DNA from: Candidatus Collierbacteria bacterium GW2011_GWB2_45_17
GTDB taxonomy: Bacteria > Patescibacteriota > Microgenomatia > UBA1400 > MFAQ01
DNA: 47,566 nucleotides
NCBI GenBank assembly: GCA_001001485.1
Contig: LCKO01000002.1
Span: 1-47,566 of the forward strand
Direction of reading: 5' to 3'
A program made the position numbers and the translations under genes. Shown piece after piece: positions 4,438 to 40,673 of the stretch. Under the pieces are notes generated by a model. It was not told where the DNA came from. It saw only the letters and a list, made by a program, of their open reading frames with translations, and ran no database searches. Positions within the stretch are counted from its first letter, which is position 1. Each line of letters begins with the position of its first letter.

Positions 4438-4832
4438 GGGGACGACAGGAATCGATGGAATAGTACGTTTACAGGTGCAAGCCGCCTTCGGTAATAGGCG
4501 TAAAAAAGACCAAAATACAACTGTCAATAAAGAAGACAAGTTACTTGGGTTCACTTCCACCGAAGTGGCTCAATCTCCCGCTCTCGCTTACGCATTTGCC
4601 TAAGCTCGAGTTTGAAGACGTCTTAGAGAGTAGCGGATCCAGGGCTCTCCTTAAGGCGATAAAACACCGGATTGAACGCTTTGAGTCCGATTTAGGCTCA
4701 AAGACTAACTTATTCTAAATCAAACTTAAGATGATCCTGTAAGACGGTAATCTTAAGAAAATCTGTCTTACTACGCTTGTAGAATCTGTAATCTTTCTGT
4801 TTCAGACGAGAGTTCAATTCTCTCCGTCTCCA
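4438..4832 (+). ncRNA. ssrA: tmRNA (transfer-messenger RNA)
   Basis: About 395 nt. The 5' end GGGGACG pairs with CGTCTCC (4825-4831) to form a 7-bp acceptor stem with one G-U pair, followed by discriminator A; CCA is not encoded. A T-arm-like GTTCAATTC lies near 4812-4820. By alignment with the conserved pre-tag AANUAnAACUG sequence, the resume codon is GTC at 4523. The tag reading frame then runs 26 codons (VNKEDKLLGF ... SPALAYAFA) to TAA at 4601-4603. The hydrophobic AYAFA end fits a protease degron, as in mycoplasma tags. A valine first codon is unusual; Ala, Gly or Asp is common. It abuts the stop of the convergent gene at 4846, and no terminator is visible. Confidence 0.93.
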
Positions 4833-4845
4833 CACTTCGCTCCGA

Positions 4846-7581: not shown

Positions 7582-7630
7582 ATAGGGCCAGGCCTTATAG
7601 GGGATTTAATCCTTCAAGGCCTGGCCCTAT
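7582..7630. repeat. Palindromic repeat GGGCCAGGCCTT...AAGGCCTGGCCC, copy 1
   Basis: A 49-nt element with perfect 15-bp arms (ATAGGGCCAGGCCTT / AAGGCCTGGCCCTAT) around a 19-nt middle. Copies 2 and 3 are at 35759-35803 and 36092-36136. This one lies between the toxin stop (7640) and the PH-domain gene and could also act as a strong hairpin. Confidence 0.88.
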
Positions 7631-7639
7631 CGTCTCTCA

Positions 7640-7903
7640 TCAAAGTAAATCTTTCAGCAAGCGATAGATTTCTTTTCGATGTCCAATCAACACGATAAAT
7701 GTCTCAGCAGGGGTTTTTTTATACACAATTCTATAATCCCCAACCCTTGTTCTGAAATAATTTTTATAACCACTCAATTTTTTCTCCTGATAAAGACTGG
7801 TTTCTGAATCCAAAGATCTAATTCGTTTATCTACAATTATCCTACTTACCTTCCCTAAGTCTGCTAATTGTTTCTCAGCTCTTCTAGAAATTAATATTTT
7901 CAT
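7640..7903 (-). CDS. RelE/ParE-family toxin
   Basis: An 87-residue basic protein of the RelE/YoeB/ParE fold. Typical features are the start MKILISRRAEKQLADLG, the middle GYKNYFRTRVGDYRIVYK (family pattern 'L.g..yRlRvGdyRviy') and the end VLIGHRKEIYRLL. RelE toxins cut mRNA on the ribosome; ParE relatives poison gyrase, and which applies is not clear. Its start overlaps the antitoxin stop by 4 nt (7900-7903), the standard antitoxin-first arrangement. Confidence 0.9.
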   Translation of the reverse strand: MKILISRRAEKQLADLGKVSRIIVDKRIRSLDSETSLYQEKKLSGYKNYFRTRVGDYRIVYKKTPAETFIVLIGHRKEIYRLLKDLL

Positions 7904-11781: not shown

Positions 11782-12894
11782 CTACATCTCCCTCTCCACC
11801 ATATACCTCTCAATTCCCTCCAGAAAATCAATCGCTTCGGCATTAAGTCCCCATGTTCGCAGTTTGGCGACAGTTTCCGCCGCTTTCTCAGCTAGTTTTC
11901 TGGACACTTCCACCGAATATTGATAAGCACCACTTTCTTTAATTGCCTTCTTTGCCTCTTCAATCTCTTCACTACTTGCCTTTTTCTTTCCCCACACTTT
12001 CATCACCGCTCTTTTTTGCTCTTCGTTTCCCTTCTCCATCACTTTTACTATCAACAGCGTTACCTTCCCTTGGAGCAGATCCGAGTTACTCGATTTTCCT
12101 GTCTTCTCTTCATCGCCATAAACTCCCAAGACGTCATCTTGCAGTTGAAACGCCACTCCTCCCTTCATCGCGTAATCTCGGAGAATAGTTAATATCTCTT
12201 CAGACAATCCTCCCAATATTCCTCCGATTATTAATGGATTTTCATAGGTATAAATCGCCGTCTTGGCTCTATGTAAACTCATCACCCCCTCCTCCGTCAA
12301 TTCACCAAGTCTTGCAAGACTCACGTCATAGGCTTGTCCAAAAGCCGTGTTCGTAATTCCCCGGAGCATCTGCTGCATAATTTTTTTTATTACTTCACCA
12401 TCAAATCCTGCCGTTAACACTCGCTCAAACCCCAAACACAAAACCACATCTCCAACATCAACCGCCATAGAATCTCCATAATGTTTATCCTCTTTTCCAA
12501 AAATCACCTGAGTAGTCGGTAAACCCCTTCTTACTTTATCCTGATCCATAAAATCGTCATGCATTAGTAGGGCGGTATGCACCATTTCCACTCCCTCCGC
12601 CACCCTCCACACTTTCTCCATTTCTGCCTTGAGTTCTTGATTCCTTGAGTTATTGAGTTCTTTTCCTAAGAGATATCCATAAATCACAAACGTAGCCCTG
12701 ACTCTTTTGGCCGGACGCAAATTGTGTTCTTTCGCGTGTTCCAGCATTTTTCGCACCAGTTCTTTTTGAGTTTCATTAAAACCAAAATCATTAGCCAATT
12801 CCTCTTCCCAATATTTCTCGAGCCTCACTCCGACTTCTTTGGCTATCTTTATCAGACTTTCTTTTGCGGCGATTCCCAAAGTATCTTTTACCAT
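11782..12894 (-). CDS. Polyprenyl diphosphate synthase (trans type, GGPP/FPP synthase-like)
   Basis: A 370-residue trans-isoprenyl diphosphate synthase that condenses IPP with allylic diphosphates. The first Asp-rich motif is MHDDFMDQDKVRRG and the second is QLQDDVLGVYGDEEKTGK. The product length cannot be read safely. Together with uppS it could supply allylic primers for C55 synthesis, or carotenoid precursors for the cyclase relic at the window start. I chose ATG 12894 (TAAAAT 7 nt upstream); the frame to 12951 runs through a dispersed repeat. A short insertion (KELNNSRNQELK) is encoded by an 8-nt-period repeat at 12628-12660. Confidence 0.92.
   Translation of the reverse strand: MVKDTLGIAAKESLIKIAKEVGVRLEKYWEEELANDFGFNETQKELVRKMLEHAKEHNLRPAKRVRATFVIYGYLLGKELNNSRNQELKAEMEKVWRVAEGVEMVHTALLMHDDFMDQDKVRRGLPTTQVIFGKEDKHYGDSMAVDVGDVVLCLGFERVLTAGFDGEVIKKIMQQMLRGITNTAFGQAYDVSLARLGELTEEGVMSLHRAKTAIYTYENPLIIGGILGGLSEEILTILRDYAMKGGVAFQLQDDVLGVYGDEEKTGKSSNSDLLQGKVTLLIVKVMEKGNEEQKRAVMKVWGKKKASSEEIEEAKKAIKESGAYQYSVEVSRKLAEKAAETVAKLRTWGLNAEAIDFLEGIERYMVEREM
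12628..12660. repeat. 8-nt-period repeat CTTGAGTT/CTTGATTC inside the prenyl synthase gene
   Basis: Successive octamers (TTGAGTTC, TTGATTCC, TTGAGTTA, TTGAGTTC) form a short degenerate tandem array. Matching arrays are at 32843-32871 and 40448-40480. Here it is in frame and antisense to the coding strand. Confidence 0.65.
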
Positions 12895-15172: not shown

Positions 15173-15180
15173 GTACGTCG

Positions 15181-15294
15181 TCATTGCGAACCCGCCGTGG
15201 CGGGTGTGGCAATCCATCCTCGTCATCCTGAGCGAAGTCGAAGGATCTCACTCCACCCGTCATTGCGAGGAGGAATCTCCGACGTGGCAATCTC
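15181..15294. repeat. Cluster of CATTGCG...GGCAATC and GTCATCCTGAGCG repeats
   Basis: Three elements in a row: CATTGCG-(CCCGCCGTGGCGGG)-TGGCAATCC (about 15182-15215), CGTCATCCTGAGCGAAGTCG-type (about 15219-15248) and CATTGCGAGG-...-GTGGCAATCT (about 15261-15294). The first and third share ends but differ in the middle, as in the copy at 4217-4266. No gene lies in this spacer. Confidence 0.65.
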
Positions 15295-15307
15295 ACTCCA
15301 ACAAATA

Positions 15308-32830: not shown

Positions 32831-32842
32831 ACAATTCTTTAT

Positions 32843-32871
32843 CTTGAGTTCTTGATTCCTAGAGTTCTTTT
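32843..32871. repeat. 8-nt-period repeat CTTGAGTT/CTTGATTC
   Basis: TTGAGTTC, TTGATTCC and TAGAGTTC in succession, in the convergent gap between the T4SS locus and dnaN and reaching the dnaN stop codon. Related to 12628-12660 and 40448-40480. Confidence 0.6.
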
Positions 32872-34296: not shown

Positions 34297-35703
34297 CTAA
34301 GTGTATAACGCCTGTGTGAGGGCCATGACTTTTCGCCTCAGATCCGTATTATTTTCAATTTGCAACTCCATTTTTTCGACGGCGTGCATTACTGTGGTAT
34401 GGTCTCTGCCTCCCATTAGTTCGGCTACCTCGGTTAAATTTAGTTTTAGAGTGTCTCTCAAAATATACATGGCCACATGTCTCGCCACCACCAAGTCCGC
34501 CTTCCGACTTTCTCCCAAAAGATCTTTGTTCCTAAAATCAAAATACTTCGCCACCGTCGAAATCACTTTGATGGGTCTTACTCTAATTTCCTTTATCGAG
34601 TTGGCAGGTAAACCCAAATTCTTCTGGACCATTTCTTTGGTCAGAACTACCCCGTCAAGATTTGCTGTAGCCGCTAGCTGGCTAAAAGTCCCTTCCAATT
34701 CTCGGGCGTTGGTAGGAAAACTATTGGCCATTAGTTCAAAAGCACTATCGTCAACCAAAACTTTTACCTCCAAAGCTCTTTGTTTCAAAATTGCCAGTCT
34801 CATTTCATAGTCAGGCAAACCAATATCTACCATCATTCCCCCCAGAAACCTGCTTCGGAGTCTGTCTTCCAGCCCCACGATGTCTTGTGGTTTTCGGTCA
34901 CTGGTCATAATTATCTGAGCCTGCTTATTCGTCAGCTCGTTAAATGTATGAAAAAATTCCTCCTGAGTTGAATCTTTTCCTCCAAAAAACTGTACATCAT
35001 CAACTAGCAGTGCTCCAACTTGACGGTACTTCTTTTTGAACGCATCCGTCATCTTGGACTTGAATGAAGCCACCAGGTCGTTGGTAAACTGCTCACTAGT
35101 AATACAGACTACCTTTCCAACTCCTTTTTTAACTAGTTCATGTCCAACAGCCTGCATGAGATGTGTTTTTCCCACCCCAACTCCACCGTAGAGAAACAAA
35201 GGATTGTGTCTAGTCCCCGGATAGTCCACCACCGCTTTACCTGCCGCAAAAGCCAGTCTATTAGAGCTCCCCACCATATAAGACTCGAAAGTATATCGGA
35301 GATTTAAATTGGTTCCTGACTGCCTGCTCTCCTCTGCCGGAGCAAAAAGACTCATGTTGGTCTCTCTGGCTTCTCCTACCCTACTATCTTTTTTATTTGT
35401 TTTAGAATCTTTTTTTAATTCAACCACTACCAAAGCCACATCACACTTCTTTTTAGTTACTTTCTCCATTGCCTGTTTGATAATGCTATAAAACTTCGTT
35501 TCTACAGTATGGCTGTGGAAAGCCGAGGGCGACGCCAGTTCAACTAAAAGACGCTGAGAATCGATTTCTGTCACCGATCTGATAAAACATGGCTTTACCC
35601 AGCTACCAAAACTAGCCGGGGACAAGCTCACTCCAAGTTCACCACAAACGGTTCGCCATAATTTTTCACTGTCCATTGACTCATTCTCATCACTTATCCA
35701 CAT
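34297..35703 (-). CDS. dnaA: Chromosomal replication initiator DnaA
   Basis: 468 residues from ATG 35703. Domain I (about 8-85, LWRTVCGELGVSLSPASFGSWVKP) and a linker precede domain III with NLRYTFESYMVGSSNRLAFAA, Walker A GGVGVGKTHLMQA (about 168-180) and Walker B ALLVDDVQFF (about 230-240). Domain IV ends with the DNA-binding signature LMGGRDHTTVMHAVEK. The frame is open to 35751, but ATG 35703 has a G-rich Shine-Dalgarno-like GGGGG 9 nt upstream and fits family length. A perfect DnaA box overlaps this start, suggesting autorepression. It is divergent from rpmH. Confidence 0.97.
   Translation of the reverse strand: MWISDENESMDSEKLWRTVCGELGVSLSPASFGSWVKPCFIRSVTEIDSQRLLVELASPSAFHSHTVETKFYSIIKQAMEKVTKKKCDVALVVVELKKDSKTNKKDSRVGEARETNMSLFAPAEESRQSGTNLNLRYTFESYMVGSSNRLAFAAGKAVVDYPGTRHNPLFLYGGVGVGKTHLMQAVGHELVKKGVGKVVCITSEQFTNDLVASFKSKMTDAFKKKYRQVGALLVDDVQFFGGKDSTQEEFFHTFNELTNKQAQIIMTSDRKPQDIVGLEDRLRSRFLGGMMVDIGLPDYEMRLAILKQRALEVKVLVDDSAFELMANSFPTNARELEGTFSQLAATANLDGVVLTKEMVQKNLGLPANSIKEIRVRPIKVISTVAKYFDFRNKDLLGESRKADLVVARHVAMYILRDTLKLNLTEVAELMGGRDHTTVMHAVEKMELQIENNTDLRRKVMALTQALYT
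35694..35702 (+). promoter_or_regulatory. DnaA box overlapping the dnaA start codon
   Basis: TTATCCACA, a perfect match, covers codons 1-4 of dnaA as chosen here. DnaA bound at this site would block transcription or initiation of dnaA itself. The codons (Met-Trp-Ile) explain part of the match, so chance is not excluded. Confidence 0.55.
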
Positions 35704-35758
35704 TTTTACAACCCCCAATTTACCCAAAAATAATAATACTCTCCACATCACATTTCTC

Positions 35759-35803
35759 TAGGGCCAGGCCTTAAAGGGCATCAATCGTCAAGGCCTGGCC
35801 CTA
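35759..35803. repeat. Palindromic repeat GGGCCAGGCCTT...AAGGCCTGGCCC, copy 2
   Basis: 45 nt with perfect 14-bp arms (TAGGGCCAGGCCTT / AAGGCCTGGCCCTA). It fills the gap between the divergent dnaA and rpmH genes and its right arm occupies the place of the rpmH -35 box. Its interior matches copy 3 (36092-36136) at nearly every base. Confidence 0.9.
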
Positions 35804-35820
35804 AAGGACGGCCTTTCAGG

Positions 35821-35826
35821 TATAAT
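35821..35826 (+). promoter_or_regulatory. -10 box of rpmH, 6 nt before its ATG
   Basis: A perfect TATAAT. Transcription should begin at the A of the rpmH ATG (leaderless). No -35 match is present where the palindromic repeat sits. Confidence 0.65.
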
Positions 35827-35832
35827 ACCCAC

Positions 35833-35970
35833 ATGCCCAAACGAGTCTACCAACCCAAAAAAGTCAAACGCATCAGAAAGCACGGTTTCCGCATCAAAAT
35901 GGCCAGCGCTTCCGGTCGTAACGTGATCAAACGCCGTCGCGCCAAGGGTAGAACAAAATTAGCTCTCTAA
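35833..35970 (+). CDS. rpmH: Ribosomal protein bL34
   Basis: 45 residues, [19 protein letters not shown], then [21 protein letters not shown] and TKLAL. This is the complete and unmistakable bL34: basic, HGFR followed by [14 protein letters not shown] structural protein of the large ribosomal subunit. It lies 1 nt before rnpA in the conserved rpmH-rnpA pair. It is too short for most ORF length cut-offs. Confidence 0.97.
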
Positions 35971-35971
35971 G

Positions 35972-36367
35972 ATGCCACTTCCGGCTATCAACCGGCTTCC
36001 TCTTCTCTTTGAAAGAGATCGTCTTACTAAAGATGGTCATACTTTCCACACCTCTCACTTCACTATTATCACCACCCCCACATCCCTTTCCCAGGGCCAG
36101 GCCTTAAAGGGCACCAATCCTCAAGGCCTGGCCCTGATGGAATTCCCAACGCCTCGTTTCTCCATCCTCCTCTCCAAAAAAACCGCCAAACTCGCCGTCG
36201 ATCGCAACCTCATCAAACGCCGCACTTCCGCCCTTCTCGCAGAACTTCTCCCCCAATTTTCCGTGGCCGATTATCTAGTCATCCCCAAACGCTCCGTCCT
36301 CGACACCCCCCACTCCGCCCTCCTCGCCGATTTAGCTTCGATGAAGTTCCTGACAAAATCGTCTTGA
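35972..36367 (+). CDS. rnpA: Ribonuclease P protein component
   Basis: 131 residues. The family core is PRFSILLSKKTAKLAVDRNLIKRRTSALL, with the RNR-type motif (DRNLIKRR) that contacts RNase P RNA; the start (LPAINRLPLLFERDRLTKDG) also fits. The protein helps RNase P RNA cleave tRNA 5' leaders. Residues 41-55 (QGQALKGTNPQGLAL) are encoded exactly by a 45-nt palindromic repeat, and removing them would restore a normal loop between beta strands. It starts 1 nt after rpmH. Confidence 0.93.
   Translation: MPLPAINRLPLLFERDRLTKDGHTFHTSHFTIITTPTSLSQGQALKGTNPQGLALMEFPTPRFSILLSKKTAKLAVDRNLIKRRTSALLAELLPQFSVADYLVIPKRSVLDTPHSALLADLASMKFLTKSS
36092..36136. repeat. Palindromic repeat copy 3, in frame inside rnpA
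   Basis: 45 nt with perfect 14-bp arms CAGGGCCAGGCCTT / AAGGCCTGGCCCTG. Compared with copy 2 the outermost pair changed from T-A to C-G on both sides, a compensated change. It starts on a codon boundary and is 15 codons long, so it keeps the rnpA frame open. Confidence 0.92.
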
Positions 36368-40421: not shown

Positions 40422-40673
40422 ATAATTTATAAATTTATTTCACAAGTCTTGATTCCTTGAGTTCTTGATTTCTTGCGTTCTACATGGCAATAATTCTATG
40501 TGGATAAGTCTAATTACGCCCATGCGCAGATTTTCACATGGACTCAGTTATAACAACAACCCTGACTAACGAAGCCTAGGTAAAAAATTAAGTATGGCTA
40601 AATAAACCAAGAAATAAAGTAAGAACAAAGAAAGTATAAAAGAATAAAATGTTACTGGTCTATACTAAAACTA
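40422..40673. other. Intergenic region with octamer repeat and isolated DnaA box
   Basis: No gene. It contains the octamer array at 40448-40480 (TTGATTCC, TTGAGTTC, TTGATTTC, TTGCGTTC), a perfect DnaA box on the minus strand (40507-40499, TTATCCACA), and an A-rich stretch leading to the next start. TATACT (40661-40666) lies 7 nt before the DUF4012-type gene. Confidence 0.6.
40448..40480. repeat. 8-nt-period repeat CTTGATTC/CTTGAGTT
   Basis: Four consecutive degenerate octamers; related to arrays at 12628-12660 and 32843-32871. Confidence 0.65.

Follow-up and report, generated by a model that had tools for sequence, protein, structure and literature searches.

The rnpA gene of Candidatus Collierbacteria bacterium GW2011_GWB2_45_17 carries an in-frame palindromic insert that is very probably a REPIN, a doublet of repetitive extragenic palindromic (REP) sequences. 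The element is most likely mobilised in trans by a REP-associated tyrosine transposase (RAYT) resident in the same genome, with copies persisting where they are tolerated. The gene lies in a 47,566-nucleotide stretch of contig LCKO01000002.1 (the window), and the source genome (G000, 894 kb) belongs to the genus Ca. Collierbacteria (Microgenomates). The original prediction, made from the window, proposed a mobile hairpin that can enter coding sequence and is tolerated because it is open in frame. This proposal is supported by direct observations of copy number, doublet structure, a cognate RAYT, co-variation of REP and RAYT types, and sites that are filled in one species and empty in another.

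The identity of rnpA is confirmed by a match to Pfam family PF00825 (3e-13) and to TIGR00188. The core hairpin begins at the first base of codon 41 (position 36092) and, as had been claimed, fills exactly 15 codons up to position 36136, which encode QGQALKGTNPQGLAL. The element itself probably extends further, to about 36088-36140, because a CC...GG foot is conserved outside this core. In a profile alignment to the solved RnpA structure 1A6F the insert falls in the turn between strands beta2 and beta3, matching 'TLDQPENDELRVGLSVSKK' of that protein, and at this loop the RnpA of G000 is 14 residues longer than that of its congener G001.

The pattern CAGGCCTT-N4..34-AAGGCCTG has 28 exact matches in the source genome and its reversed control none, and chance origin is therefore excluded. 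Three of the copies lie in the window, the two outside rnpA being found where the original prediction had placed them. The copy upstream of rnpA had been put at 289 bases away; the true distance is 288 bases between the copies, or 333 from start to start. A search of relatives, which had been suggested as a check, found the element in congeners as well.

When the 28 copies are aligned in one orientation, they consist of two inverted units of ~23 nt each, with a short variable spacer that is itself able to pair. The unit in G000 is CC-NNN-AGGGCC-A-GGCCTT-NNN-GG, the second unit being its inverse, and the general 23-nt framework is CC-NNN-ARGGCC-W-GGCCYT-NNN-GG. The core is 43, 44 or 45 nt long in 6, 17 and 5 copies, respectively, and the feet are well conserved, with C at -4 in 24/28 copies and G at +4 in 26/28. 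Some cores of 43-45 nt recur unchanged at unlinked sites: one is present three times and four are present twice. A half-unit search of the genome found 84 REPs, comprising 56 in the 28 doublets and 28 others, four of which belong to the RAYT locus itself. The resulting singlet to doublet ratio is 1.0 (28:28), within the limit for REPIN / RAYT membership (below 2).

The arms AGGGCCAGGCCTT / AAGGCCTGGCCCT are perfectly paired in all three window copies, in agreement with the original prediction; the folding z-scores of these copies range from -5.5 to -6.4 and no shuffled sequence folds equally well. A compensated change had also been read into the outermost pair. This pair is only weakly conserved (16/28 Watson-Crick, 7 T-G and 5 mismatched); compensated arms are instead seen between species, with AGGGCC..GGCCCT in G000 and AAGGCC..GGCCTT in G007 at the same site. 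The strong RNA fold, and the location of some copies just past stop codons (such as that at 7582-7630), would suit an intrinsic terminator or mRNA-stability hairpin that is repeated as a regulatory signal and held by function. However, a run of four Ts is found within 14 nt of either stem end in only 2 of the 28 copies, several copies lie within coding frames, sequence identity continues across the spacer and congeners have empty sites. We consider such a signal very improbable.

There are three Y1-family genes in G000. One of these, at locus L025, matches PF01797 (Y1_Tnp) with 44 bits against a cut-off of 23 and has a visible HFH motif. This locus contains four copies of CCTGCAGGGCCAGGCCCTGCAGG, one upstream of the gene, two in frame within it and one past the stop codon. 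One internal copy encodes SLQGQALQA and precedes the HFH motif; the other encodes PAGPGPAG and directly follows YIHRNP, the presumed Y motif. In the RAYT loci of Collierbacteria (L025, L126, L133, L140 and other Y1 loci) the cognate REPs number four and their positions are constant, two lying in frame within the gene, and paralogous loci in the same genome and in sister genomes share this layout with the other REP centres AGGACTGTCCT, AGGAGAGTCCT, AGGATAATCCT and AGGACCATCCT. REPs differ at a mean of 0.98 positions within a RAYT locus, compared with 5.5 between loci (permutation p about 0.0002).

The dispersed REPs follow the resident transposase. Among those of sister types, 27/39 match the type of the resident RAYT where 15.3 are expected (p about 5e-5), and permutation of genomes gave 4 of 720 for the match between REP and RAYT types, which were assigned by hand in a test that was not blind. 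GGGCC-type REPs are frequent only in genomes with a GGGCC-type RAYT. Such a RAYT is present in G000, G002, G004 and G007, which contain 84, 7, 8 and 15 GGGCC-type REP halves, respectively; the other five genomes, without one, contain 0, 0, 0, 1 and 2. G007 additionally has an AAGGCC-type RAYT.

Hairpin recognition is common to the whole Y1 family, and at the Y1 genes of LCEJ (L122) and C24 (L125) a whole element is found at one end with a matching hit at the other. The repeat could thus be a miniature inverted-repeat transposable element derived from a classical IS200/IS605 element with left and right ends. Against this, the proteins are longer than compact IS200 enzymes (about 224 aa) and a genome has only one for each REP type, their genes are flanked by REPs as in REPtrons, and no dispersed element was seen with a transposase between doublet ends. 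An IS200/IS605 derivative is accordingly hard to credit.

The loop that holds the insert in G000 differs widely across the genus. In G001 it is short and has no insert, and in G007 it contains the same GGCC-type doublet, giving a loop of 15 residues that differs from that of G000 by one change (QGQALKGTNLQGLAL). The loop of G004 holds a AGGAGAGTCCT-type doublet, that of G002 a CATTGCGAG repeat, that of G008 a CATTGCGAG repeat with a GTAGGGGCGATTC hairpin, and that of G006 a CATTGCGAG repeat in which other palindromes are nested. This one RnpA loop is therefore filled by at least three distinct repeat families, in six of seven species of the genus. Relatives thus do not all share the same 15 residues, as the original prediction would expect of an ordinary part of the protein. 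The near-identical loop of G007 is what a lineage-specific loop with incidentally palindromic DNA would show; this explanation is already refuted by the presence of this DNA at a further 27 sites, where it is intergenic or read in different frames, and the loop is short in G001 and in every aligned rnpA from outside the genus. We give it practically no weight. The CATTGCGAG-type repeats were not tied to a RAYT in this analysis; a literature text search gave only unrelated hits and no published match to the sequence, and it is absent from the text of PMC3733652. Two CATTGCGA..GGCAATC repeats at 15180-15295 of the window belong to the family in the rnpA loop of G002, G006 and G008. The rnpA gene of G006 (L111) has a second in-frame palindromic insert further on (IPSPARQTATLSAGFPPADYL).

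The element is also present in other genes. The copies that have Pfam-supported coding sequence on both sides comprise that in obg, two in an FkbM methyltransferase gene and two in a linker before a NUDIX domain. The reading frames of the element differ (rnpA +2, FkbM -1 and +0, obg -2), as do the encoded peptides. Because it is read in several frames and on both strands in different genes there is no shared protein motif, and the element is mobile DNA. Empty sites are found in congeners. The obg loop contains the doublet in G000 and G007 and is empty in G008, and the first FkbM site is empty in G004 and G008, G004 having other repeats elsewhere in the gene. G001, G002, G007 and G008 lack the copy that precedes rpmH, and other repeats occupy this place in G004 and G006.

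The Rickettsia palindromic elements (RPEs), palindromes found in frame in protein genes, are similar in that here too several unrelated proteins contain in-frame inserts and a single loop has been used repeatedly. An RPE-type coding element, spread by another route without a known transposase and only incidentally associated with the RAYT, would also fit the other palindromic families in the RnpA loop, notably the CATTGCGAG type of G002, G006 and G008. We regard this as improbable: the cognate RAYT is flanked by the same REP, REP and RAYT types co-vary, and most copies in G000 lie outside recognised genes. The RPEs of R. conorii are CGTC-tagged and CGTC repeats are without a dedicated transposase (PMC3733652); unlike these, the element has a cognate RAYT and, by inspection of the 28 aligned copies, no CGTC tag at its ends.

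Some candidate copies were set aside. A 43-nt core identical to that of rnpA is present in a gene with a XerC-like N-terminal domain (L019, G000:C10:57231), which seems to be frameshifted after the core; it was dropped as a clean in-frame insertion, as homology seems to continue in another frame. A copy at PBP1A may lie upstream of the true start. The closest named relatives with the element are Ca. Collierbacteria. Gottesmanbacteria, Daviesbacteria, Curtissbacteria and other metagenome-assembled genomes contain similar hairpins whose arms are of the AAGGCC form, often in large numbers in one genome. Matches in Pseudomonas, Burkholderiales and Thermoanaerobaculia were rejected as their flanks and spacers differ; those in Pseudomonas also look like conserved coding DNA.

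In established systems a RAYT binds the REP hairpin while the DNA is single-stranded and cleaves it at the foot, and the spreading unit is believed to be the REPIN (PMC3116915, PMC6006769). We infer a similar single-stranded intermediate here, in which the two inverted 23-nt REPs would form a hairpin. By analogy with TnpA-REP, the RAYT at C10:12500 would recognise REP hairpins where single strands are exposed, introduce nicks at the REP feet and rejoin the excised strand elsewhere. Copies would insert irrespective of reading frame, and selection would spare those in coding genes if the added codons are open, in frame and within a tolerant surface loop. The beta2-beta3 loop of RnpA is probably such a slot, the insert there being presumably neutral.

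Several points weigh against the REPIN explanation. The anatomy fits the RAYT/REPIN scheme except that the classical GTAG foot is absent: of the 28 flanks, 2 and 3 have GTAG or CTAC at a distance of up to 15 nt. The L025 protein scores 42.9 bits (E 4e-11) against the NCBIfam model NF047646 (REP_Tyr_transpos), below its curated cut-off of 80, although the internal REPs and evolutionary distance may lower this score. The case for movement comes from comparison between species rather than from observed transposition. Finally, to judge from the sequences, an ancestral insertion followed by a change of both arms is as likely an account of the rnpA and obg sites as two separate insertions.

The insert in rnpA need not be recent: G007 has this element at the same nucleotide, its left junction coinciding with that in G000. 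The inserts of the two species are identical at 42/45 positions, compared with 86/120 and 139/180 in the flanking gene. In a DnaA tree G007 groups with G002, G004 and G008 and G000 groups with G006, so that G000 and G007 are not sisters. The element may descend from a single ancestral insertion and have later been replaced or lost in other species, or the site may be a hot spot that was entered twice. In both rnpA and obg the two species share position, orientation and inner variant, and both outer arms differ together (AGGGCC versus AAGGCC); this joint difference is the least explained point. Since the site and inner variant are shared, both arms have changed together and G007 has an AAGGCC-type RAYT, REPs at fixed, inherited sites could conceivably be rewritten in place to the REP type of the resident RAYT, although we think this rather unlikely. 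If this were general, inherited REPINs would be re-templated at their sites, whether through RAYT-driven exchange, through gene conversion or by hairpin-templated repair, and a loop of an essential protein would be a standing slot for exchangeable elements.

Table 1. Location of the rnpA insert, its sister copies, the cognate transposase and neighbouring genes (window positions unless a locus is named).
Feature	Position	Strand	Basis or remark
rnpA, RNase P protein, 131 aa	35972..36367	+	PF00825, TIGR00188, profile alignment to 1A6F
Probable REPIN (REP doublet), in frame in rnpA	36088..36140	+	core hairpin 36092-36136; probable CC..GG feet included
Second copy, intergenic, dnaA (minus strand)/rpmH	35755..35807	+	core 35759-35803; just upstream of TATAAT-like box
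Third copy, intergenic, 9 nt past stop of RelE-like ORF	7582..7630	+	sequence match and fold
RAYT (Y1/HUH transposase), locus L025	G000:C10:12500; L025:1243-2003		four cognate REPs
RelE-like ORF	7640-7903	-	named by eye from translation
rpmH (ribosomal protein L34), between two neighbouring copies	35833..35970, end approximate	+	
dnaA ORF (longest start listed)	34297..35751	-	DnaA-box-like TTATCCACA at 35694

Within 35800-35835, the TATAAT-like box of rpmH is only about 6 nt before the ATG, which suggests that the rpmH mRNA is leaderless, with the upstream part of its promoter abutting the inserted hairpin. Runs of an 8-nt unit (TTGAGTTC/TTGATTCC) occur at 12619-12662, 32842-32869 and 40447-40482 of the window, and the FkbM gene (L018) encodes a similar stretch, ELKNSRNQGIKT. 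A tmRNA is found at 4438-4835, with an unusually long predicted tag (VNKEDKLLGFTSTEVAQSPALAYAFA).

The element shares with the REPINs of Bertels and Rainey 2011 (PMC3116915) an inverted REP doublet whose variable spacer is paired, compensatory changes, a large number of dispersed copies, the prominence of doublets among REPs and a cognate RAYT flanked by the same REP. It differs in having CC..GG feet in place of GTAG, a near-perfect odd palindrome of 23 nt, some copies in frame in genes and a host among the Patescibacteria. The GTAG foot is likewise absent from TnpA-REP subclass 2.6 and class 3 (PMC6006769). Intragenic GTAG/CGTC REPs and REP dimers have been described in frame in conserved genes, with loops suggested as tolerant sites and different REPs at about the same recB site in two Xanthomonas species (PMC3733652); here the genes entered are instead rnpA, obg and FkbM, and one rnpA loop houses three or more repeat families. 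In TnpA-REP subclass 2.4, in-frame REPs lie inside the transposase gene in addition to the flanking REPs (PMC6006769), as they do in the RAYT genes described here, where one internal REP precedes the HFH motif and the other directly follows the presumed Y motif. We therefore dropped the novelty of REPs within RAYT genes.

REPINs, REP dimers in conserved genes and REPs in RAYT genes are thus already on record (PMC3116915, PMC3733652 and PMC6006769, respectively). No paper linking REPINs with Patescibacteria was found among the open-licence literature searched and, as far as those papers show, the host group, rnpA as a target and the recurrent use of a single loop by three or more repeat families are new. 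These small genomes, with several RAYT-REP pairs each and clear co-variation, would be suited to the study of REP recognition. The RnpA loop provides a naturally occurring series in which several repeat families have inserted at the same point of an essential protein, and annotators should be cautious, as such loops are not domain features. It shows a route by which mobile DNA lengthens conserved proteins.
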